Origin: a virus
Virus record (IMG/VR): IMGVR_UViG_3300042691_034076
Location: 1-30,388 of that record
Reading direction: 5' to 3' (one strand)
Length of the DNA: 30,388 bases
The notes beneath the pieces are model-generated. The model saw nothing but the letters and a program-made list of their open reading frames with translations. It was not told the DNA's origin and did not search any database. Made by a program: the position numbers and the translations under genes. Below are positions 4,000 to 30,388 of the stretch, piece after piece. Every line of letters starts with the position of its first letter. Within the stretch, counting starts at the first letter, position 1.

Positions 4000-4228
4000 T
4001 GTATATGAAATTAAAAATTTAGTGCATGAGTTATTATCTGAAGATGAAATTTCAGTAATTAATAAAATTAATTTTTGCAAAAATGACGACGATCGTCTTC
4101 TTAAATTAAGAAATATATTCTTCGGTCATGATGATGAAACTGATATTTATATTAGAGTCAAGGATCATGTTGACCCTTCTTGGTTAGTTTATAAAATATA
4201 TACATTAGGTAAAAATTATGAATTTTAA
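3992..4228 (+). CDS. Small acidic hypothetical protein, 78 aa
   Basis: A 78-residue protein overlapping both neighbours (eight bases upstream, eleven downstream). It begins with a helix (NNVYEIKNLVHELLSEDE), then a segment with NFCKNDDDRLLKLRNIFFGH and an acidic run DDETDIYIRVKDHVDPSW. I recognise no family. The overlaps and shared acidic character with the next gene suggest co-expression, perhaps as partners. The gene contains a TATTTATATT sequence at 4144-4153, an example of the late-like motif arising inside coding sequence. Confidence 0.6.
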   Translation: MNNVYEIKNLVHELLSEDEISVINKINFCKNDDDRLLKLRNIFFGHDDETDIYIRVKDHVDPSWLVYKIYTLGKNYEF

Positions 4229-8454: not shown

Positions 8455-9096
8455 ATGATAAAAAAATCCAAAAAAGATAGTTTATACGGAGACGATAGAA
8501 AATCTCAATATAAAAAAGATAAAGAACTTCGTGAAGACTTCAATGAAGATGACTCAGTGTATAATGAAATAGATTATGGGCTAAACATTAACGATTCAGT
8601 TGTATACCTTCATGGAGATATAATGTTAGGTAATTTATTTGATTTCATTGCTAAGATTAGAATTATATTAGCAAATCGCCCTGAAGAGAATGCAAAAGAT
8701 CCTATTACGTTAATGATTAATTCCAATGGCGGTGATGTATACGAGGCTTTAGGTATTATTGATTATATAGAAACACTGTCAGTGCCTGTTAATGTTATCG
8801 CGCGTGGCAGAGCGATGTCGGCAGCTGCAATGATTTTATGTTGTGGTACTGGATTGCGTGCAGCGTCAAAGTCTTCGACAATAATGGTTCATGAAGCTTC
8901 TGCAGAGATATTTGGTAAGTCAGCTGATATAAAAGCTAATGCAGAGCATATTGATGAGCTAGAAGAAGAGTTTTATAGGATGATGGCGAAGAAGACAAAG
9001 CATGATGAAGATTTTTGGAGAAAAGCGTGTCGTAAAGATTATTATATGACAGCACAAAAAGCTTTGGAATTAGGTTTAATTGATAAAGTAATTTAA
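8455..9096 (+). CDS. clpP: ClpP-type serine protease (peptidase family S14)
   Basis: A 213-residue protein with an N-terminal charged extension of about 45 residues (KKSKKDSLYGDDRKSQYKKD) followed by the ClpP fold. The oxyanion loop is NSNGGDVYEA (89-98). Catalytic residues can be aligned: S122 in RAMSAAAM, H146 in IMVHEAS and D195 in RKDYYMTA, so the triad is intact. The C terminus has the family pattern ALELGLIDKV. ClpP forms tetradecameric chambers that degrade proteins delivered by a Clp ATPase; no ATPase gene is in the window, so it may use the host one or work alone. In other phages S14 proteins serve as prohead proteases, but this gene is near baseplate and sigma genes, with no capsid genes in view. 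A short downstream gap leads to the HD-domain gene. Confidence 0.93.
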   Translation: MIKKSKKDSLYGDDRKSQYKKDKELREDFNEDDSVYNEIDYGLNINDSVVYLHGDIMLGNLFDFIAKIRIILANRPEENAKDPITLMINSNGGDVYEALGIIDYIETLSVPVNVIARGRAMSAAAMILCCGTGLRAASKSSTIMVHEASAEIFGKSADIKANAEHIDELEEEFYRMMAKKTKHDEDFWRKACRKDYYMTAQKALELGLIDKVI

Positions 9097-14448: not shown

Positions 14449-16323
14449 ATGGCACAAATTAAAAAAGATATAAGATATCTAAATAAAGACTTCAGTCAAT
14501 TTCGCGCGAATTTAATTGAATTTGCTAAAAATTACTTTCCAAATACATATAATGACTTTAATGAGTCTTCGCCAGGTACAATGATTATTGAAATGGCATC
14601 ATATGTAGGCGATGTATTGTCATACTATACAGATAATCAATTAAAGGAATCGTTACTTCCATATGCTACTAATGGAACTAGTATATTAGCTATAGCATCG
14701 ACATTAGGATATAGGACAAAAAATACTATTCCAGCTACGGTAGATTTAGATGTATTTCAATTACTTCCTGCAAAGACAACTGAATCAGGAAAAACTCCTG
14801 ACTGGTCATATGCATTGACAATTAAAGAAGGAATGATTGCACGTGCTGACGATCAAAATATAGAATTTCGTACTGCTAGCAGAGTTAATTTTGCATCGTC
14901 TTCTAGTTTAGATCCAACAGAAGTAAGCGTATATCAAGTTAATGATTTAGATGGCACTCCTGAATATTATCTATTGCGTAAAACAGTTAAAGCGGTATCA
15001 GGTACAGTTAAAACGGTTACGTATGAGTTTGGTAATGCTAAAAGATTTGATAAAATTTTACTTAACGATATTAACATAATTGATGTCGTTTCAATAATTG
15101 ATTCAGATTTAAATGAATGGACTGAGGTACCATATTTAGGTCAAGAGACTGTTTTTGAGACAGTAGCTAATACGGTACAAAATGACCCACAGTTATCTTC
15201 ATATAAAGATGTGCCATATCTACTTAAATTAAAGAAAACGGCTAAACGATTTATAACTAGATTTCGTCCAGATAAAAATTTAGAAATTCAATTCGGCCCA
15301 GGAGTATCTGTTGATAGTGATGAAGAAATTATACCAAACCCAGATAATATTGGTAATAGTTTAGTTGGATTGCAAATGCAATATGATCAGCCTATTGATC
15401 CTTCAAATTTTATGTACACAAAGGCATATGGTCAAGCTCCTTCAAATACTATATTAACAGTTAAATATACTATCGGCGGCGGAGTTGAGTCAAACGTACC
15501 TTCATTTGCGATAAAGACGGTTGCGAACGTTGCATATGAAATTGATTCACAAAATTTAGACGCTAGACTATTAACAAGAATAAAAGCTTCAGTTGCGTGT
15601 ACAAATCCAAAACCAGCTTCTGGAGGTAAAAGTTCGGAAACTATTGAAGAGATACGACAAAATGCTTTAAGTTCCTTTGCGTCTCAACAACGTGCGGTTA
15701 CGGCGCAAGACTATGTAATACGGGCTTACTCACTTCCGTCTAAATTTGGATCAGTTGCTAAAGCTTTTATTATTCAAGATGAACAGATTAATCCGAATAA
15801 TACTGAACAGCGTATATCTAACCCATTAGCCCTTAATTTATATACGTTAGGATATGATTCTAATGGAAAATTAGCAGAGCTCAATCCCGCAGTTAAGGAA
15901 AATTTAAAAACTTATTTATCTCAGTATAGAATGGTAACTGACGCTATCAATATAAAAACTGCGTTTATTATTAATATTGGAGTTCAATTTGAAATTGTTA
16001 CATTACCAGAATATAACTCAAATGAAGTTTTATTAAAATGTATTGATAAACTTAAAACGATATTTAATATTAGAAATTGGCAAATTAATCAACCAATAAT
16101 TCTGTCAAAAATTTATACGGAGTTAGATAGGGTTGAAGGCGTTCAGTCAGTGACTACAATTAAAATTGGAAACTTATATGATACCGCTACCGGATATTCA
16201 GGAAATGTATATGACATAACTAGCGCTACAAAAGATGGAGTAATTTATCCTTCATTAGATCCTAGTATATTCGAAGTTAAATTTCCAAACTCTGACATTA
16301 TCGGCAAAGTTAACGCAATGTAA
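14449..16323 (+). CDS. 6: Baseplate wedge protein gp6 (baseplate J family)
   Basis: A 624-residue protein close in length to T4 gp6 (660 aa). The N terminus (KKDIRYLNKDFSQFRANLIE, NDFNESSPGTMIIEMASYVG, YYTDNQLKESLLPYATN) is the signature of gp6/baseplate-J proteins, which dimerise to form the ring around the hub. The centre has the conserved ETIEEIRQNALSSFASQQRA and VTAQDYVIRAYSLPSKFGSV (about 397-436), typical of this family. The C terminus (ILSKIYTELDRVEGVQSVTT) matches the wedge-closing domain. In T4 gp6 rearrangement links the switch from hexagonal to star-shaped baseplate to sheath contraction. It follows gp25 and precedes another probable baseplate gene after eleven bases. Confidence 0.9.
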   Translation: MAQIKKDIRYLNKDFSQFRANLIEFAKNYFPNTYNDFNESSPGTMIIEMASYVGDVLSYYTDNQLKESLLPYATNGTSILAIASTLGYRTKNTIPATVDLDVFQLLPAKTTESGKTPDWSYALTIKEGMIARADDQNIEFRTASRVNFASSSSLDPTEVSVYQVNDLDGTPEYYLLRKTVKAVSGTVKTVTYEFGNAKRFDKILLNDINIIDVVSIIDSDLNEWTEVPYLGQETVFETVANTVQNDPQLSSYKDVPYLLKLKKTAKRFITRFRPDKNLEIQFGPGVSVDSDEEIIPNPDNIGNSLVGLQMQYDQPIDPSNFMYTKAYGQAPSNTILTVKYTIGGGVESNVPSFAIKTVANVAYEIDSQNLDARLLTRIKASVACTNPKPASGGKSSETIEEIRQNALSSFASQQRAVTAQDYVIRAYSLPSKFGSVAKAFIIQDEQINPNNTEQRISNPLALNLYTLGYDSNGKLAELNPAVKENLKTYLSQYRMVTDAINIKTAFIINIGVQFEIVTLPEYNSNEVLLKCIDKLKTIFNIRNWQINQPIILSKIYTELDRVEGVQSVTTIKIGNLYDTATGYSGNVYDITSATKDGVIYPSLDPSIFEVKFPNSDIIGKVNAM

Positions 16324-19140: not shown

Positions 19141-22100
19141 ATGTTATCTGTATATACTAATCAACCAGATCTTTTAAAAGCTACTGCGGAGTCAAAAATT
19201 TCTAGGATAGACTCTGTAGACTTAGAGCTTTTAAAATTAGATTACGAACAATTTTCTGTTACGTTTGAAGACAGAAACGATCTACCTGATTTAGAACTTC
19301 ATGTTTATACCCCAGATGGTTTATATTTAACTGGAGATCATAAAATTAGATACTCTGTTGAAAAGAACGATACTACATCTAATTTAGTAGCATTTCAGCA
19401 TCTATCAATTGATATTCCTACCGTATTTGAAAAATTAGGTATTAACCGCGGTCAGTATAAAGTCGTATATAATTTATTTGACAATGTCATAGGATCCTAT
19501 GAAGGATTAAAATTATGGATTAAAGAAATATCTCCATCTAGAAGAGAACTTCGTTTACAATTATCAGATAATGAAAGCCCAGAGCTACTTAAACAGTTAG
19601 AAAGTTTTCAAGATCGTTGGAATTTTTTAGCAGAAGATGATCGATTTGACTCGTTTGTTTTAAATTTTGGATCTAATGAAACGTTTCAGATAATTAATGT
19701 TCGATTTGAAACGGAGTTTACTGATACTCCGGAAATATATATTAAGTTATATAATCCATTACCCGCAAAGTATGGAGAAAAACTTAAGGTATGGATTTCT
19801 GAAGAAATTATTACTCCGGTATTAGACAATGTTATTTTAGTTCCAAAGTTTGTACCTGACCCTGTTAATAAGCTTGCGCCTGCAAATTTTGAAATTGAAA
19901 CGTTTGAAGCCAGTTCTGTTGCGACAGACTTTAAAACGTGGAATGACTTATTATCAACTAACTTAAAGACTTCGCAGCAAATTATTGATAGTCAATTTTC
20001 TGGTTCGCTATCGGGAATTAAATTAAATATTAACTACCGTTTATTTGACAATTTTGTACATTACGGATCTGCAGTTGAAAGAGTTAAAAACTTTAAATAC
20101 AAAGTAGAGTTAATCGAATACTATTCAAGCAAAATTGACAACTTATTAAAAGTATCAGATCAAGGAATAGTTAATGTTAATTTAAACGACTTACATACAA
20201 AACGTAATCGTATAGTTAGTGGATTAGACGACTTTGAAAAATACTTATTTTTTGAATCTACAGGAAGTAATTTATACACTCATTATGATGAAATTACAGG
20301 TTCAAATACTATTGATCCTGTACTTCCATGGCCAAAGACGACCCCGGTTAGTTTAAATTGGATTGACGCATATCAATTGTGGAGTTCAATGGCCAGTCAG
20401 TGGCAAATTGGATCGGCCCCGGACCCATATGGATATTTTTCAATTCAAGTAAATTCGGAATCTGAAACTGCGAAAACGTATTTTAACAATTTACTTGAAA
20501 CTGCAGCTATTTACGATAAAAATAACATTCATAAACTACAAAGTACAATACCGTACCATATTCAAACAAATGAAGAAAACGATGATTTTTTATTGTTTAT
20601 TCATATGTTAGGACAGCATTTTGATATTTTATGGACGTACGTAAATCATTTATCTACAACTAAAGAACGAGAAGAGCACCCTAAAGACGGTATGCCTGAT
20701 GAGCTTTTATATCACGTAGCGGCTTCTTTAGGATTTGATTTATTAAATGGAAGATCTTCTTCAGAGTTATGGAAATATAACTTAGGGACAGATGAATTAG
20801 GAGATATAGTAAAAAATTCTCAAGGATTAGTTCCGTTATCTGATAAGCAGATTACTCGAGAAATTTGGAGACGTATTGTAAATAATTTACCGTACATATT
20901 AAAAACAAAAGGTACCGCTCGATCTATCAAAGCTTTGGTAAATTGTTTTGGTATTCCATTAACGGTATTAACAATTAAAGAGTATGGCGGCCCATCGTCA
21001 TTTACTAACGACGATCAGTATCCAGAATATATACACGACGTATTTCATTACGCTTGGTTTTCTAATACAGCAACTGGAAGTTTAGAGTTGTCAGTAGGAC
21101 AATATTCCAATGGGTTCAATCAAAACGTTGCGCCAAATACACTAACATTCAGATTTAAGACAGATAATAATTATAGCTACTATCTAAATCAATATTACAG
21201 TATCGCGTCTATATCAAGCGGGTCTGTTAGTGATGTATACAACTTAATATTAACAAAAGATTCTGCGGACGATGAAGAAGGTACATTAACGTTATTTAAC
21301 CGAATAACTGGAACTGCTATATCAGCTTCTAACTTAGAAATATTTGACAATAATTGGAATTTAATTTCAATTGAGTCGACAGCAGCGACAGCTTCATTTA
21401 AACTTACAAAAACATTATATGGTAATACTGTATATATAAAATCTGCTAGTTTTTATGGAGAAACGATATTTCCAGATACCGGATCCGCTACTATAACTTT
21501 TGCTTCCGGGTCTAGAACATTTTCATCGTCAGTATCAATTGGAGCGAATACAATATCAGGATTAGAAAAATTCTATGGACATTTTCAAGAAGTTAGGCTA
21601 TGGTCTGGATCACTAATTAACGAGGTATTAGAAGAGCATTCAGCTTCTCCAAATACATATACGTTTAGATCTGACTTAAATGAGTCTGCGACAGGTGAAG
21701 AGGCGCTGCAGTCATATTACCGTTTATTACAGCGATTTAATTTGTCAAGTAAACGAGTTTTAAGTGGATCGTTATACCAATCTTCAATTCATCCTAACCA
21801 AACATTAAATACAGGGTCTTTATATTTTATTGGGTATTCTGATTCAGGCTCAATTAAATTTGAAGCGTTTGAAGAAACATATTATACACCGTCGCCATCG
21901 TTAGGAGGCTCTAGTTTATATTCTGATAAAATTCGTTTTGAATCTTCTAGTTTAAATCCTAATAGAACGTTAAATACTAAAACTAGAATAGAACGTTCTA
22001 GTTTAGATCAATATTCATTAGATTCAAATCGATTAGGCGTTTATTTCTCACCACAAACGGCGATTAATGAAGATATATTCAATCAATTAGGTTATTTTGA

Positions 22101-23727
22101 AATTGACGATTATATAGGAGATACCAGAGGTGAGTATGAAACTACATATCCTTTATATGATTCATTTGCTAGAAATTACTGGAAAAAGTATGAAAATAAA
22201 AATGACTTTGAAGCATATTTCAGAGCTTTAGAAATTTATGACTTTACAGTATTCAAATATATTAAACGTATATTACCTGAACGTGTTAATGGAATTATAG
22301 GTTTGGCCGTTGAGAATAACGTTTTAAATCGTAGCAAAGTTAAGTTTTTGCGCAATAAACCTACAATTCAAGATTTAACTCAAAGAGGATTACTTGATGC
22401 TACTAATGTAGTAATACCTAAGTCTGAGACTTTACCACTTCGTGGAGTTATTGATGAAGAAGTGATTAAACCAGTTGCAGAAACAAAAGATATTAAAGGT
22501 GTCATTGATGAAGATATCATTGAATTGGAATCGTTTATAACTCCTATTAAAGGCGTTATTGCTGATGATATTCCTAAACCAAAAGCTGAGACAAAAGACA
22601 TTAAGGGTGTTATTGATGATCAAAAAGTAATATTAGTTAGTGACACAAAAGACATTAAAGGTGTTATTGATAGCGATGTAGCCCCTAAAACTTTTGCAGC
22701 GACTACGGATATCAAAGGAACTGTAGATGGTAATGTTGCGCCTGAAACGTTTGCATATACTAGTGATATTAAAGGTATTATTGACGGAGACGTTACTCCT
22801 GAAACGTTTGCATATACAACTGATATTAAAGGTACAATGGAGGCGGACATTGTTCTTCCAGATACATATGGGGATGTATCTAATAACGTCAAAGGATCTG
22901 TAGATTTATCAATAACATTCCCAGAATTAGATCTTGAAAGACTTGATTTTCAGTCTGTAACTTCTGTTAGGCCTATAGGCGGCGGTGACCTTGAATTGCA
23001 TATTGGGCATCCTAGTAGACCGGAAAACAGAAAACCATTAGTTTTCTTTAAATTAGAAAATTTCAAAAAAACTAATTTCTTTTTATCTAGCTCAACTGCT
23101 GATGCTGATTTACCAAAGTATCAAATTAATCCGTATGACTTATTAAGCGGCGCATTACCAACAACGAGTACTGCTTTAATTGATTCTAATTTAACTGAAA
23201 TTGGTGGTAGTTCTATAAAACAAGCTATTGGCGAAGTTCAAAAAAATGTCGCGACTGCTGATGGTGATATATTAGTTGTCGATCGTGGTATTATAGAAGG
23301 ATCAATTAATACGAATCGATTAGGCACTTCGTGGTTAGAAAAAAAGCGTGTAGGAAATGTTCAATTTACTGAGTCGGGGTCGTATAAGCCAATTGCAGTG
23401 CAAGTATATAACTCTAGATTATCTACATATCAAGTAACTCAAGAACTATTTTATAGCAACGACATATCAGCTTCATTAAAATTACCTAGCTCATCTAGTT
23501 TAAAGTTTGCTGAAGTAAATAACGACTATGGACCTGGATACGACAATTTAAAATGGAATGGAAGTAAATTAACTGGTCCTGGAGTTAATATTGATACTCC
23601 AAATACAGTCGATGGAGGGCCTGTAGTTAAAATAACTAAAGTTAATCCAAATCAAATTGTATTTGCAAATAATCAAATTACTACAATTGATGAATCTAAA
23701 ACTGGTCGTAGAAAAAGAACGATATAA
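19141..23727 (+). CDS. Large tail/baseplate protein with P2 gpI-like and LamG-like segments and KGVID repeats
   Basis: At 1528 residues this is the largest protein here. The N-terminal 450 residues are beta-rich with repeated structural-protein patterns (VTFEDRNDLPDLELHVYTPD). Around 490-615 it resembles tail proteins of the P2 gpI type: FIHMLGQHFDILWTYVNHLS, PDELLYHVAASLGFDLLNG and EIWRRIVNNLPYILKTKGTA followed by RSIKALVNCFGIPLTVLT. In P2, gpI helps attach tail fibres to the baseplate. A LamG/concanavalin-like region follows (about 635-840, LEKFYGHFQEVRLWSGS). Residues about 1097-1260 hold nine imperfect repeats with core DIKGVIDxDV. The C terminus is again beta-rich and ends in a basic GRRKRTI. 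The protein probably plays the role of T4 gp7/gp10 as wedge and fibre anchor. No upstream gene overlaps; a candidate late promoter precedes it. Confidence 0.75.
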   Translation: MLSVYTNQPDLLKATAESKISRIDSVDLELLKLDYEQFSVTFEDRNDLPDLELHVYTPDGLYLTGDHKIRYSVEKNDTTSNLVAFQHLSIDIPTVFEKLGINRGQYKVVYNLFDNVIGSYEGLKLWIKEISPSRRELRLQLSDNESPELLKQLESFQDRWNFLAEDDRFDSFVLNFGSNETFQIINVRFETEFTDTPEIYIKLYNPLPAKYGEKLKVWISEEIITPVLDNVILVPKFVPDPVNKLAPANFEIETFEASSVATDFKTWNDLLSTNLKTSQQIIDSQFSGSLSGIKLNINYRLFDNFVHYGSAVERVKNFKYKVELIEYYSSKIDNLLKVSDQGIVNVNLNDLHTKRNRIVSGLDDFEKYLFFESTGSNLYTHYDEITGSNTIDPVLPWPKTTPVSLNWIDAYQLWSSMASQWQIGSAPDPYGYFSIQVNSESETAKTYFNNLLETAAIYDKNNIHKLQSTIPYHIQTNEENDDFLLFIHMLGQHFDILWTYVNHLSTTKEREEHPKDGMPDELLYHVAASLGFDLLNGRSSSELWKYNLGTDELGDIVKNSQGLVPLSDKQITREIWRRIVNNLPYILKTKGTARSIKALVNCFGIPLTVLTIKEYGGPSSFTNDDQYPEYIHDVFHYAWFSNTATGSLELSVGQYSNGFNQNVAPNTLTFRFKTDNNYSYYLNQYYSIASISSGSVSDVYNLILTKDSADDEEGTLTLFNRITGTAISASNLEIFDNNWNLISIESTAATASFKLTKTLYGNTVYIKSASFYGETIFPDTGSATITFASGSRTFSSSVSIGANTISGLEKFYGHFQEVRLWSGSLINEVLEEHSASPNTYTFRSDLNESATGEEALQSYYRLLQRFNLSSKRVLSGSLYQSSIHPNQTLNTGSLYFIGYSDSGSIKFEAFEETYYTPSPSLGGSSLYSDKIRFESSSLNPNRTLNTKTRIERSSLDQYSLDSNRLGVYFSPQTAINEDIFNQLGYFEIDDYIGDTRGEYETTYPLYDSFARNYWKKYENKNDFEAYFRALEIYDFTVFKYIKRILPERVNGIIGLAVENNVLNRSKVKFLRNKPTIQDLTQRGLLDATNVVIPKSETLPLRGVIDEEVIKPVAETKDIKGVIDEDIIELESFITPIKGVIADDIPKPKAETKDIKGVIDDQKVILVSDTKDIKGVIDSDVAPKTFAATTDIKGTVDGNVAPETFAYTSDIKGIIDGDVTPETFAYTTDIKGTMEADIVLPDTYGDVSNNVKGSVDLSITFPELDLERLDFQSVTSVRPIGGGDLELHIGHPSRPENRKPLVFFKLENFKKTNFFLSSSTADADLPKYQINPYDLLSGALPTTSTALIDSNLTEIGGSSIKQAIGEVQKNVATADGDILVVDRGIIEGSINTNRLGTSWLEKKRVGNVQFTESGSYKPIAVQVYNSRLSTYQVTQELFYSNDISASLKLPSSSSLKFAEVNNDYGPGYDNLKWNGSKLTGPGVNIDTPNTVDGGPVVKITKVNPNQIVFANNQITTIDESKTGRRKRTI
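22432..22905 (+). repeat. Nine imperfect KGVID repeats in the large tail protein
   Basis: Units of 17-20 residues share the core [LI]-[KR]-G-V-I-D followed by an acidic pair and a hydrophobic residue, e.g. PLRGVIDEEV, KDIKGVIDEDI, DIKGTVDGNV and DIKGIIDGDV. Between cores is a Thr/Glu/Pro-rich spacer (PETFAYT occurs twice). At DNA level the units have diverged, with only neighbouring units similar, as expected from stepwise duplication. A beta-strand rod or flexible spacer is likely. Confidence 0.8.
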
Positions 23728-26006: not shown

Positions 26007-27770
26007 ATGAGTAAACCAGGAGCATTTAAACGAATTCCGCCACGTGATATCACGGTAAGTCCATTCAAGGTATACAAATCTTGGAGATTTACTACGACAT
26101 CTTCTTTAGATGAATATGGAATTGATCGTTTAGTAGCTATTAAACCGGACAAAAGAATATTTGAAGGTCACCCAGTTGCTTTCGGGCATTGGACTACAAT
26201 ACGTGACACTGGATCGTTTTTAGTAAACACAAAAAATGATAAAGAAGCGTCATTAATTTGGTATAGCATTGATCATTTATACTATAAAAGAACTGGCGCA
26301 CCATTTGACACGTTTGGATTTTCAGATCCTGAAAAAATCGAGCGTATGATGTATGACGAAGCTTTTATATTAAGCGTTCCACAAAAAATGTATGGAGAGC
26401 AGATTAAAGCAGGATCAGTAAAATTGTATTTAAAAAATTCACAATTAAATGATATTACAATGTCATTAGTTGACGACGGCCGCGGCAATTTAATTGATAC
26501 TGCCTTAAGTTCGTCAATATCTAATGAAATTTTTTATTTAGGATTTAATAGTTATACATACGGAAGATTATATTCAGATTCTGTGCCAGTAGAAACGCTT
26601 AATGATAGTTCTACAAATTCAATGCATGTTGATACTATTATTCCTAATTTATCAGTTCCTAGTAAGAACGTTAGGATAGTGCCTAGATACAATTTACCTT
26701 CAAGCTCAATTCAATGGGGCAATGCTGCTTATTTTTCTGGTAATGGATACATGCGCGTACCAAATAATGAATATCTTAATTTTAAAATAGACCAAGACTT
26801 TGCAATATCATTATGGGTGCATAGAGTTGCTGCAAACTCTGAAGATTCATACATACTTTCAAAAAGAACAACAGGAGTTGGTGAATATTTTAATAGAGCT
26901 TTAGGTAAAGTAGTTGTAGACGACGTAAACTATAAAATATCACAATATCCATTTGATATATATTTTAAAGGGTCTTCTGGAAATTTAGTCTGTCGACAGT
27001 CTTCCGCTGCAAATGTTGTTGCATTAGAATCTTCAAACATTCCTGTAGGATCTAGAAGTCACGTATTATTTAATAAGACAGGATCTAAATTAGAATTGTA
27101 CGTTAATGGGCAATTAAATGCTTCGTCAAGTATTAATATTGAAGATGGATTTACACAAAACGAAGCTGACATATTTATTGGCTCGCTAGGGTTAGATAAC
27201 ACCCGTAATGCTAAAAATGCATTCTCCGGCGCGTTAGATGAAATAATGATATTTAATAAAGGATTAAATTCGGATGAAGCTTTACAATTAGCATTTACAG
27301 GATCAATGAATTTAATGACTACAAATACTAATGTAATAGGTAATGTATTTTATGAACATGGATTAATTGTAATATCAGATCCTAGACCTAAATATGGCAC
27401 TAGCGACTATAGAATGTTTAATGATGTATTGTTAGATTCAAATACAAACACAAATTTACCTTCTTATTTAGAATCAATTCGTTTTGAATTTAATTCTCAA
27501 ATTACAATTTATGAGCATGAATATGTAATTAAAATACGAGAAGATGAATTTAACTTTACGACAAATCCTACAATAAGAAAAAATAACGATCCTAATTCGC
27601 AGCTTCCAAAAGATTTTGTATCCAATCCAAAATTTGCTCCTTATATAACTACAATAGGACTTTATAATAAAAACGCAGAATTAGTAGCAATTGCAAAATT
27701 AGCATCGCCAATACATAAACGAGATGACGTCGACTTAAATATATTAGTAAAATTTGACGTAATGACCTAA
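26007..27770 (+). CDS. Structural protein with LamG/concanavalin-like domain
   Basis: A 587-residue protein. The N terminus (PGAFKRIPPRDITVSPFKVY) and following segment (SWRFTTTSSLDEYGIDRLVA) look like a baseplate-attachment region. Residues about 240-430 form a LamG-like jelly roll: AAYFSGNGYMRVPNNEYLNF, FAISLWVHRVA, KLELYVNGQLNASSSI and FSGALDEIMIFNKGLNSDEA, the usual order for LamG-3 domains, often sugar-binding. The C-terminal 80 residues are the module shared with the protein at 24508 (EFNFTTNPTI, YITTIGLYNKNAELVAIAK, LASPIHK, ILVKFDV). It is a candidate peripheral baseplate or receptor-contact protein. Confidence 0.75.
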   Translation: MSKPGAFKRIPPRDITVSPFKVYKSWRFTTTSSLDEYGIDRLVAIKPDKRIFEGHPVAFGHWTTIRDTGSFLVNTKNDKEASLIWYSIDHLYYKRTGAPFDTFGFSDPEKIERMMYDEAFILSVPQKMYGEQIKAGSVKLYLKNSQLNDITMSLVDDGRGNLIDTALSSSISNEIFYLGFNSYTYGRLYSDSVPVETLNDSSTNSMHVDTIIPNLSVPSKNVRIVPRYNLPSSSIQWGNAAYFSGNGYMRVPNNEYLNFKIDQDFAISLWVHRVAANSEDSYILSKRTTGVGEYFNRALGKVVVDDVNYKISQYPFDIYFKGSSGNLVCRQSSAANVVALESSNIPVGSRSHVLFNKTGSKLELYVNGQLNASSSINIEDGFTQNEADIFIGSLGLDNTRNAKNAFSGALDEIMIFNKGLNSDEALQLAFTGSMNLMTTNTNVIGNVFYEHGLIVISDPRPKYGTSDYRMFNDVLLDSNTNTNLPSYLESIRFEFNSQITIYEHEYVIKIREDEFNFTTNPTIRKNNDPNSQLPKDFVSNPKFAPYITTIGLYNKNAELVAIAKLASPIHKRDDVDLNILVKFDVMT

Positions 27771-27786: not shown

Positions 27787-28188
27787 ATGAGAAGAAAAAA
27801 GTTTACGACAAAACAAGTGGCCGCTAAATATGGATTTCGCAGCGGGTTAGAAATGAAAATTGACGAATCACTTAAAAATCAAGGTATTGATGGTGAGTAT
27901 GAACAGCATATTATACAATATACTAAACCAGAAACTCATCATAAATATCATCCTGACTTTAAATTACCTAATGGTATATTTGTAGAAACTAAAGGAAGAT
28001 TTTTAGCTGACGATCGTAAAAAACATTTACTAATAAAAGCACAACATCCTGAATTAGATATTCGATTTCTATTTCAAAATTCTAAAACTAAAATTAGTAA
28101 AGCGTCTAAAACTACATATGCAGATTGGTGTATAAAGCATGGATTTCAATTTGCAGACAAAGAAATTCCTAACGACTGGCTTGTGTGA
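27787..28188 (+). CDS. Holliday-junction resolvase, T7 endonuclease I-like
   Basis: A 133-residue protein clearly related to T7 gp3 (endonuclease I, 149 aa). Shared stretches include FRSGLE (17-22), YHPDFKLPNGIFVETKG (54-70), DDRKKHLLIKAQHPELDIRF (75-94) and KHGFQFADKEIP (117-128). The active site of the PD-(D/E)xK nuclease is intact: E22, D57, E67 and K69 correspond to T7 E20, D55, E65 and K67. The dimer cuts four-way junctions and branched DNA, resolving recombination intermediates before packaging. T4 uses the unrelated endonuclease VII (gp49), so this appears to be a swap. It lies between the tail block and the primase gene. The start context AAAAAGTTATG is typical. Confidence 0.94.
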   Translation: MRRKKFTTKQVAAKYGFRSGLEMKIDESLKNQGIDGEYEQHIIQYTKPETHHKYHPDFKLPNGIFVETKGRFLADDRKKHLLIKAQHPELDIRFLFQNSKTKISKASKTTYADWCIKHGFQFADKEIPNDWLV

Positions 28189-28225: not shown

Positions 28226-29170
28226 ATGATAAATACTAAGTTAATTCAATTATTAGAATCTGTAGTAGGTAAAGGCAAAGTTACTAACAAAGGTAATATT
28301 GCACATCATTGCCCATTTTGTCAGTCATCAAGAAAAAAACTTGAAATACAGACAAATACAAATGATAAAGGAGAAAATCCATGGCACTGTTGGGTTTGTA
28401 ATAAATCAGGAAAGAAGCTTTCTTCACTATTCAAATCACTTAACGTAAACCGTGATAAATTAACGGAGCTATACAATTTACTTAACATCCTCCCTAAATA
28501 TAGTAGTAGAGAGATCGACAGTAACAATCAAAGTACGACAGTTCTCGAATTGCCTAAAGAGTATATTCCGTTATATCAACATTCAGATTCAATTGAATAT
28601 AAAAATGCTATACATTATTTAAGAGCTAAAAGAAAAATTACTTTATCTGAAATAGTTAAGTATGGAATTGGATATTGCGAATCAGGAGAGTATGCTAAAA
28701 AGATAATTATACCTTCATACGATGAAACAGGTAAATTAAATTTCTTTGTAGGCAGAGCTTATTACGACGTAGACTTTAAACATAAAAATCCAGATCATTC
28801 TAAAAATTGTGTCGGCTTTGAATTGTTTATTAATTGGAGTTTACCTTTAGTGCTCGTTGAAGGTGCGTTCGACGCAATTGCAGTTAGACGAAATGCAATT
28901 CCACTATTTGGAAAAACTATATCTGAAAATTTACGTAAAAAGATAATTGAAAATAAAGTATCAAAATTATACATTTGTTTAGATAAAGACGCTCAAAAGC
29001 AAGCATTAGAGCATGCCGAGTATTTTATGAACAATGGAGTTGAAGTTTATTTTGTAGATTTAAAAGAAAAAGATCCTGCAGAAATAGGATTTGAAACTAT
29101 GTGCAAATTAATTAAAGAAACTCAACCATTAACCTTTTCAAAATTTATAGAATATAAATTATTTATATGA
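28226..29170 (+). CDS. DNA primase, DnaG/T4 gp61 type
   Basis: A 314-residue primase, near the size of T4 gp61 (342 aa). An N-terminal zinc-binding domain of the CHC2 type is seen: HHCPFCQSS (27-35) and WHCWVCNKSGK (53-63), with C29, C32, C55 and C58 (H28 and H54 alternative) as ligands. The polymerase core follows (about 125-200, AIHYLRAKRKITLSEIVKYG). The TOPRIM fold has LVLVEGAFDAIAV (E212 as the conserved acid) and LYICLDKDAQ (D253, D255). It synthesises RNA primers for lagging-strand replication together with a helicase not in the window. The stop overlaps the next ATG (ATGA), coupling it to the SbcDC-like gene. Confidence 0.92.
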   Translation: MINTKLIQLLESVVGKGKVTNKGNIAHHCPFCQSSRKKLEIQTNTNDKGENPWHCWVCNKSGKKLSSLFKSLNVNRDKLTELYNLLNILPKYSSREIDSNNQSTTVLELPKEYIPLYQHSDSIEYKNAIHYLRAKRKITLSEIVKYGIGYCESGEYAKKIIIPSYDETGKLNFFVGRAYYDVDFKHKNPDHSKNCVGFELFINWSLPLVLVEGAFDAIAVRRNAIPLFGKTISENLRKKIIENKVSKLYICLDKDAQKQALEHAEYFMNNGVEVYFVDLKEKDPAEIGFETMCKLIKETQPLTFSKFIEYKLFI

Positions 29171-30388
29171 TAACAAAAATTAACATTGGAATTGATCGCA
29201 TTGATAAAATTTATCATTTAGCTGACATTCATATTAGAAATTTAAAAAGACATCAAGAGTATAAAACTGTATTTAGTCGTACCGTTGAAGCTATTAAAGC
29301 AACATTAACTCCTAATGATGTTATATTTTTAGGGGGTGATATCGTTCACGCTAAGACAGATATGACTCCGGAATTGGTTCAGTCTGTTCAAGAGTTTTTT
29401 AAACAGTTCGCAGATTTAGCTCCGACAATTTTAATTACAGGAAATCACGATTGCAACTTAAATAACAAATCTAGATTAGATGCCTTAACTCCAATTGTCA
29501 ATGCACTTAATCACCCAAACTTACATTATTTAAAAGATTCTGGGGTATATCAATTAGCCGATAAACACTTTACTGTTATGTCTGTCTTTGATAAACCAAA
29601 AGATTTTATTCGTGCAGATTCATTTAATGCTGACTATAAAATTGCACTACATCATGGCGCAGTTAATAATGCAATGACTGATATTGGATTTAGGTTGCAA
29701 AATGATCATGTAGATATTGATATGTTCAATGGATACCAATTAACTTTGTTAGGAGATATTCATAAACCAGCTCAATTTTTAAATGATGCTAAGACTATTG
29801 CATATCCAGGAAGTTTAATTCAACAAAACCATGCAGAAGCTTTAATTCATGGAATGTTAGTATGGGATACAGCTACACAAAAATCAGAATTTGTAGCAAT
29901 TCCAAATGACATTTGTTATTATACATTGGAAATTGAAAATGGCATTCAGCCTGCAATGCCAATGGAATTAAATGGAAAAACAATTCGATTGCGAGTTAAA
30001 GTAAGAAATACAGAATCTGCAGATTTAAAACGTATTATTGCAGAAGTTAAATCAGTATTTAATATTGAAGAATACACTATACAAAAAATAAATGACTTTA
30101 CAAATAATAAAAATAGAGTTCAAAAAATTAATATAGGGGATGTACGGGACGTTGAACATCAAAATGATTTAATAACTAAATTCTTAGATAATAAATTTGC
30201 ACTTGATAATGTAATGTTAGACGGTATTCGTCATGTAAATCGAACAGTTAATTCAAGTTTACCTAAATTGGAAATTTCTAGAAATGTATCTTGGATTCCA
30301 AAGAAATTTGAATTTTCAAATATGTTTAGTTATGGAGTTGATAATGTAATTGACTTTACTAATATGCGTGGAGTGTATGGAATTTTTG
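29167..30388 (+). CDS. SbcD/Mre11-like nuclease fused in frame to an SbcC/Rad50-like ATPase (3' end outside window)
   Basis: The ATG overlaps the primase stop (ATGA) and the frame stays open to the window end, 407 residues. The first 340 or so are an SbcD/T4 gp47-type metallophosphatase: HLADIHIR (17-24), FLGGDIVH (54-61), ITGNHD (90-95), ALHHGA (160-165) and LLGDIHKP (194-201), the five motifs binding two metal ions. T4 gp47 ends at 339 aa. Here the frame continues, and residues 374-407 (NVSWIPKKFEFSNMFSYG, DNVIDFTNMRGVYGIF) match the start of SbcC/Rad50/gp46 proteins just before the Walker A loop. The two recombination subunits thus appear as one polypeptide. The complex resects DNA ends for recombination-dependent replication. 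Confidence 0.88.
   Translation, partial: MITKINIGIDRIDKIYHLADIHIRNLKRHQEYKTVFSRTVEAIKATLTPNDVIFLGGDIVHAKTDMTPELVQSVQEFFKQFADLAPTILITGNHDCNLNNKSRLDALTPIVNALNHPNLHYLKDSGVYQLADKHFTVMSVFDKPKDFIRADSFNADYKIALHHGAVNNAMTDIGFRLQNDHVDIDMFNGYQLTLLGDIHKPAQFLNDAKTIAYPGSLIQQNHAEALIHGMLVWDTATQKSEFVAIPNDICYYTLEIENGIQPAMPMELNGKTIRLRVKVRNTESADLKRIIAEVKSVFNIEEYTIQKINDFTNNKNRVQKINIGDVRDVEHQNDLITKFLDNKFALDNVMLDGIRHVNRTVNSSLPKLEISRNVSWIPKKFEFSNMFSYGVDNVIDFTNMRGVYGIF

Follow-up and report, generated by a model that had tools for sequence, protein, structure and literature searches.

A reading frame at the end of an aquatic phage contig very probably encodes the first part of a single-chain SbcD-SbcC (Mre11-Rad50) nuclease

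Does the reading frame at the 3' end of a viral contig, in which a nuclease of the SbcD/Mre11 type runs into the beginning of SbcC/Rad50, belong to a truly fused gene, and what would the complete product be? The window, by which we mean the whole stretch of DNA that was analyzed, is 30,388 bases long; it is the entire IMG/VR contig and record, and the sequence genuinely ends there. The frame (29167-30387, plus strand) is open from its ATG through the last codon of the record with zero stops, and the ATG overlaps the stop codon of an upstream primase gene (ATGA, 29167-29170). Within this frame the SbcD/Mre11 nuclease continues directly into the first SbcC/Rad50 strands. A preliminary description of this DNA had proposed exactly that arrangement, and it was borne out: the ORF is open, Pfam recognized a Metallophos domain in it, and both of the peptides quoted in that description, WIPKKFEFSNMFSYG and VIDFTNMRGVYGIF, were found near its end. 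The window lacks a Walker A motif because the contig ends at 30,388, and a search of the record for the SbcC ATPase gave no match because the record ends first.

We consider it very probable that the gene encodes a single-chain SbcD-SbcC (Mre11-Rad50) protein, a predicted ATP-dependent DNA-end nuclease of a tailed aquatic phage, and that it appears short only because the contig ends. From Walker A onward, the Rad50 part of this reading is taken from relatives that are about 80% identical to the window gene over the shared part. The features of the gene and of its neighbors are collected in Table 1. Motifs I-IV of the calcineurin-like domain retain their metal ligands, and motif V is altered from His to Asp; the window carries GGDIVH at motif II and GDIHKP at motif V.

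Table 1. Positions of the predicted features in the window, and of cut copies of the gene in other contigs
Feature	Location	Strand	Evidence
T7-type endonuclease I (junction-resolving type)	27787..28188	+	Pfam PF05367, E=4.6e-59
DNA primase (Toprim), directly upstream of fusion	28226..29170	+	PHROG 47, E=1.1e-35; Toprim_2
5' part of fused sbcD-sbcC (mre11-rad50) gene, 407 codons, truncated by contig end	29167..30388	+	ORF and relatives
Calcineurin-like (Mre11/SbcD) nuclease domain, residues 14-201	29206..29769	+	Pfam PF00149 Metallophos, E=4.5e-10; PHROG 7339 DNA repair exonuclease
Metal motif I, D20-x-H22	29224..29232	+	invariant in alignment
Metal motif II, G57-D58-I-V-H61 (canonical GDxxD; H as in Mimivirus R555)	29335..29349	+	alignment; PMC3175470
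Metal motif III, G92-N-H-D95	29440..29451	+	alignment
Metal motif IV, H163	29653..29655	+	alignment
Metal motif V, G196-D197-I-H199 (D for P. furiosus Mre11 His206, as in R555)	29752..29763	+	alignment; PMC3175470
Asp codon replacing motif V His	29755-29757	+	alignment
Predicted helix-loop-helix, residues 329-363	30151..30255	+	two helices of L005 model, offset +1
Linker from SbcD to SbcC, about 11 residues	30256..30288	+	L005 model; dN/dS
First strands of SbcC/Rad50 ATPase head; Walker A expected at next codon	30289..30387	+	model strands; APNASGKS in relatives
Cut copies, IMG/VR	L028, L037, L041, L069, L079-L083, L087-L090		
Cut copy, LR756508	L063:1980-6202		

The missing part of the gene was read from full-length relatives. 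A search of viral contigs with the 407-aa query matched 61 IMG/VR loci, and the nearest full-length matches were about 80-82% identical. Among the relatives there were 39 complete single-frame ORFs (29 distinct sequences) of about 1,050-1,143 aa, the close full-length relatives having about 1,050-1,070 codons. All 39 share one order of elements in one frame: nuclease, capping region, helix-loop-helix, a linker of about 11 residues, Walker A, CxxC, signature, Walker B with D-loop, and H-loop. The last residues of the window, GIF, are followed immediately in most relatives by the Walker A motif APNASGKS, which agrees with the earlier statement that the window stops just before Walker A. Farther along come CxxC at about residue 724-773, the signature TSGME (a variant of SGGE), the Walker B motif LAIDEGFG, the D-loop LD and the H-loop histidine. 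The motifs to be looked for in the same frame according to the preliminary description (Walker A, the zinc hook, the signature and Walker B) are all present in relatives, and neither a stop codon nor a frameshift follows soon after the position equivalent to 30388 in the nearest of them. In the relative L005, the Q-loop (Q520), zinc hook (C726xxC729) and H-loop (H1026) all fall outside the part covered by the window.

We then scored the wider set of 143 fetched IMG/VR loci, in which motif V and Walker A lay in one open frame in 107; these 107 correspond to 64 distinct sequences as judged by residues 60-200, some contigs having been fetched twice or more. The remaining loci ran off the contig end (15), closed early (16) or were not scored (5). 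On relatives, Pfam placed Metallophos and AAA_23 on a single chain, and their profile matched the solved structures of E. coli SbcC (E=3.3e-33), archaeal Rad50 and T. maritima Mre11. AAA_23 (PF13476) was sought in ten long viral contigs of 81-217 kb that carry the fusion, and in eight of them the sole match was the fusion ORF. In G004 (157,280 bases) and G007 (216,699 bases) not even the fusion reached the threshold; a second, divergent SbcC copy may be present in these two, and the ten contigs are possibly incomplete. Several of the ten contigs have other Metallophos genes elsewhere, all of them short frames of 223-275 codons. The join itself is maintained coding sequence under purifying selection: dN/dS between the window and five relatives was 0.15-0.18 over the 407 codons, and 0.10-0.12 over the helix-loop-helix and linker.

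An AlphaFold model of the L005 protein (mean pLDDT 79.4, pTM 0.45, a value at which the relative placement of domains is not readable) comprises the nuclease, capping strands, two helices (328-343 and 347-362), the linker (363-373) and a Rad50 strand (374-383). C-terminal of the first Rad50 lobe it shows a coiled coil and then a second ATPase lobe. In Mre11, a helix-loop-helix binds the base of the Rad50 coiled coil. Foldseek matched the model to Mre11-Rad50 heads and Mre11 cores in the PDB; in BFVD it matched, over the full length, proteins of giant viruses and of Tenacibaculum phages (the pT24 and PTm1 fusions), the top match being a Tupanvirus protein of 1,379 aa (26% identity, E=8.6e-75).

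Fusions of this kind are not new, and they are common in giant viruses and in phages of aquatic habitats. Yoshida, Claverie & Ogata described Mimivirus R555 as an Mre11-Rad50 fusion in 2011, together with twelve further fusions from bacteria, plasmids, eukaryotes and Bacillus phage 0305phi8-36, and found R555 homologs, probably viral and including those of phages, to be abundant in aquatic metagenomes and virus fractions (PMC3175470). The window gene is a further example of these R555-type fusions. Judged by its published description, R555 shares with it the domain order in one frame, GDxxH in place of GDxxD, Asp in place of His206, and the helix-loop-helix followed by a short linker (PMC3175470). 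It differs in length (1,351 aa versus about 1,055 aa here) and in setting, Mimivirus infecting amoebae and the window belonging to a tailed phage. Some metagenomic scaffolds with R555 homologs have phage primases and T7-type endonucleases as neighbors, as the window does (PMC3175470).

Deposited phage genomes hold the fusion as well, as do dozens of contigs. One of the 39 complete ORFs comes from Microcystis phage Mel-JY01, whose genome is complete; this CDS, labelled "AAA domain containing protein", shows 46% identity to the window over 407 aa, and a primase-like gene lies a little upstream. Tenacibaculum phages pT24, PTm1 and PTm5, Chryseobacterium phages MA9V-1 and MA9V-2 and Sphingomonas phage PAU also encode nuclease and ATPase parts in one CDS, but their proteins, at about 1,300 aa, exceed the present one in length and are only distantly similar to it; annotation calls them metallo-phosphoesterase or DNA repair, or gives them no name. 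Four of our loci, L159, L160, L161 and L065, are the fused SbcDC of the large cultured phages PAU, PTm1, MA9V-1 and pT24, respectively. Four others (L071-L074) are fused-gene relatives whose contigs had been assigned to MAGs of Nitrosopelagicus, Chloroflexi, a Gammaproteobacterium and one further bacterium.

The preliminary description had set the window against T4, in which the subunits come from separate genes. That much stands, since genes 47 and 46 are separate in T4; the implied novelty does not, fusions having been described in 2011 and being present in deposited phage genomes. We found separate SbcD and SbcC genes in T4 and in the four other phages looked at. These pairs consist of the same two homologous subunits, with the nuclease gene first, but the genes are separate, at most two small ORFs lying between them, and motif V reads GHxH. 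E. coli SbcCD and the Mre11-Rad50 complexes of T. maritima and P. furiosus match both halves by profile and fold, but they are made of two polypeptides and have the canonical His206 and an SGGE-type signature rather than TSGME.

The alternative that survives best concerns activity rather than gene structure. Because the equivalent of His206 is Asp, the fused protein could bind DNA ends yet cleave them weakly or not at all. Motif V reads GDIH in 7 of the 8 fused phage proteins compared (the exception, Sphingomonas phage PAU, has GHIH), versus GHxH in all five separate phage SbcD proteins (T4, Goe3, ACG-2014f, ECP3 and VL10), a distribution that lends this possibility some weight. With few proteins compared, and the fused ones related to each other, this is a correlation and not a rule. 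Against loss of activity, the 24 rows of the alignment show no variation at the remaining metal residues, and the change to Asp is conserved, not decaying; Asp is, moreover, a common metal ligand. We therefore regard a mere end binder as unlikely and an active nuclease as the better reading, with the proviso that metal binding and activity may differ as a result of the substitution.

A second alternative is that the Rad50 part of the window gene is interrupted somewhere after base 30388. Such variants do exist: the related gene is cut, or is represented by the tail of a cut copy, directly behind motif V in jumbo phage LR756508 and thirteen contigs of IMG/VR. An acidic tail closes the first piece, e.g. 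ILQKYEYEEIEVDECDVDEYLQKGWQIK, with a net charge of -4 to -11 in the eight tails counted, and the second piece restarts with a basic leader, e.g. MSKKIKLYRKKPEIRY, with a net charge of +1 to +7. For L041/L078, which ends inside the tail, and L037/L077, which ends inside the following gene, the second piece lies beyond the sequence read. In contigs that could be read through, the pieces are separated by a homing-endonuclease-like gene (about 250-305 aa if complete), by a shortened ORF or by no ORF, and the intervening genes gave weak matches to MTES_1575/DUF559/Vsr endonucleases, or were TnsA-like in the case of LR756508. All of the cuts found, however, fall at about residue 205, immediately past motif V, and the window gene is unbroken there; early closure at any other place was not seen among the fetched loci. 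An interruption of the window gene itself is thus very improbable, and we retain the reading of one uninterrupted chain.

In three other loci (L084, L085 and L086, at about 4001-4210), tail and leader are joined in one open frame, and two of the three frames are complete, with 1,074 codons. A model of the N-terminal part of L086 placed strands at the tail-leader loop with low confidence (blocks of pLDDT 57-60). Genes split by homing endonucleases, with reassembly of the pieces, are known from phages, as in nrdA of Aeh1 and others (PMC2988022). Judging from these present-day states, on which the order from fused to split to re-sealed, the homing activity and the reassembly all depend, we lean toward a scenario in which the fused gene family has been a repeated target of homing endonucleases just after motif V, which would divide it into an N-terminal nuclease piece and a piece with the rest of SbcD-SbcC; the pieces would reassemble via their tails, and some lineages may have lost the endonuclease and been re-sealed with the tails left as a loop. 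A further single-frame copy, L111, has an apparent extra tail-leader loop like that of L084-L086. Other mobile elements were considered at the interruption. For a group I intron, Rfam (E<=0.5) gave nothing on L028, L037 and L041 beyond a single weak snoRNA match, which was below threshold and distant from the interruption; in L028 and L069 the space between the pieces looks insufficient to hold a ribozyme. An intein was judged unlikely by inspection, the tails being about 15-35 residues long and having no HN|C/S/T end.

The last alternative is an artefact, either loss of the stop codon between two separate genes or a chimera at the end of the contig. The join does lie within about 130 bases of that end, where errors are commoner, but this reading is hardly credible: dozens of independent contigs share the same join, as does the cultured phage Mel-JY01 with its complete genome, and synonymous changes predominate across it. 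Inspection of the linker revealed no obvious candidate for an internal start that would give a separate SbcC.

How might a one-chain enzyme work? By homology, two chains would dimerise via their nuclease and ATPase heads into the equivalent of a 2:2 (M2R2) complex, in which ATP would gate access of the DNA end to the nuclease. The product would probably be a resected 3' end for recombination-dependent replication or for repair, the role proposed for T4 gp46/gp47, and the fusion may act alongside the adjacent primase and junction-type endonuclease. Canonical Mre11-Rad50 complexes are already 2:2. It had been suggested that fusion would fix a 1:1 stoichiometry and change how the nuclease meets the ATPase. 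With complexes that are already 2:2, the ratio is preserved rather than newly imposed. The second change is not needed, because the linker of about 11 residues in the L005 model fits the nine to twelve residues estimated to bridge the T. maritima complex (PMC3175470).

Many aquatic phages appear, on present predictions, to process DNA ends with a one-chain Mre11-Rad50. For this family, whose environmental members had at first been deduced mainly from short reads, the loci supply many additional complete examples from phages, and such a protein, with stoichiometry and pairing built in, could suit structural and single-molecule work. The fusion leaves existing knowledge unchanged; the variants in pieces are the less expected part.

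By its sequence, the window record looks like that of a contractile-tailed phage. A 1,528-aa ORF at 19141-23727 had zero PHROG matches at E<=0.001. Elsewhere in the window, profile matches identified a head maturation protease (8455-9096), a baseplate wedge (14449-16323) and a LamG-type domain protein (26007-27770).
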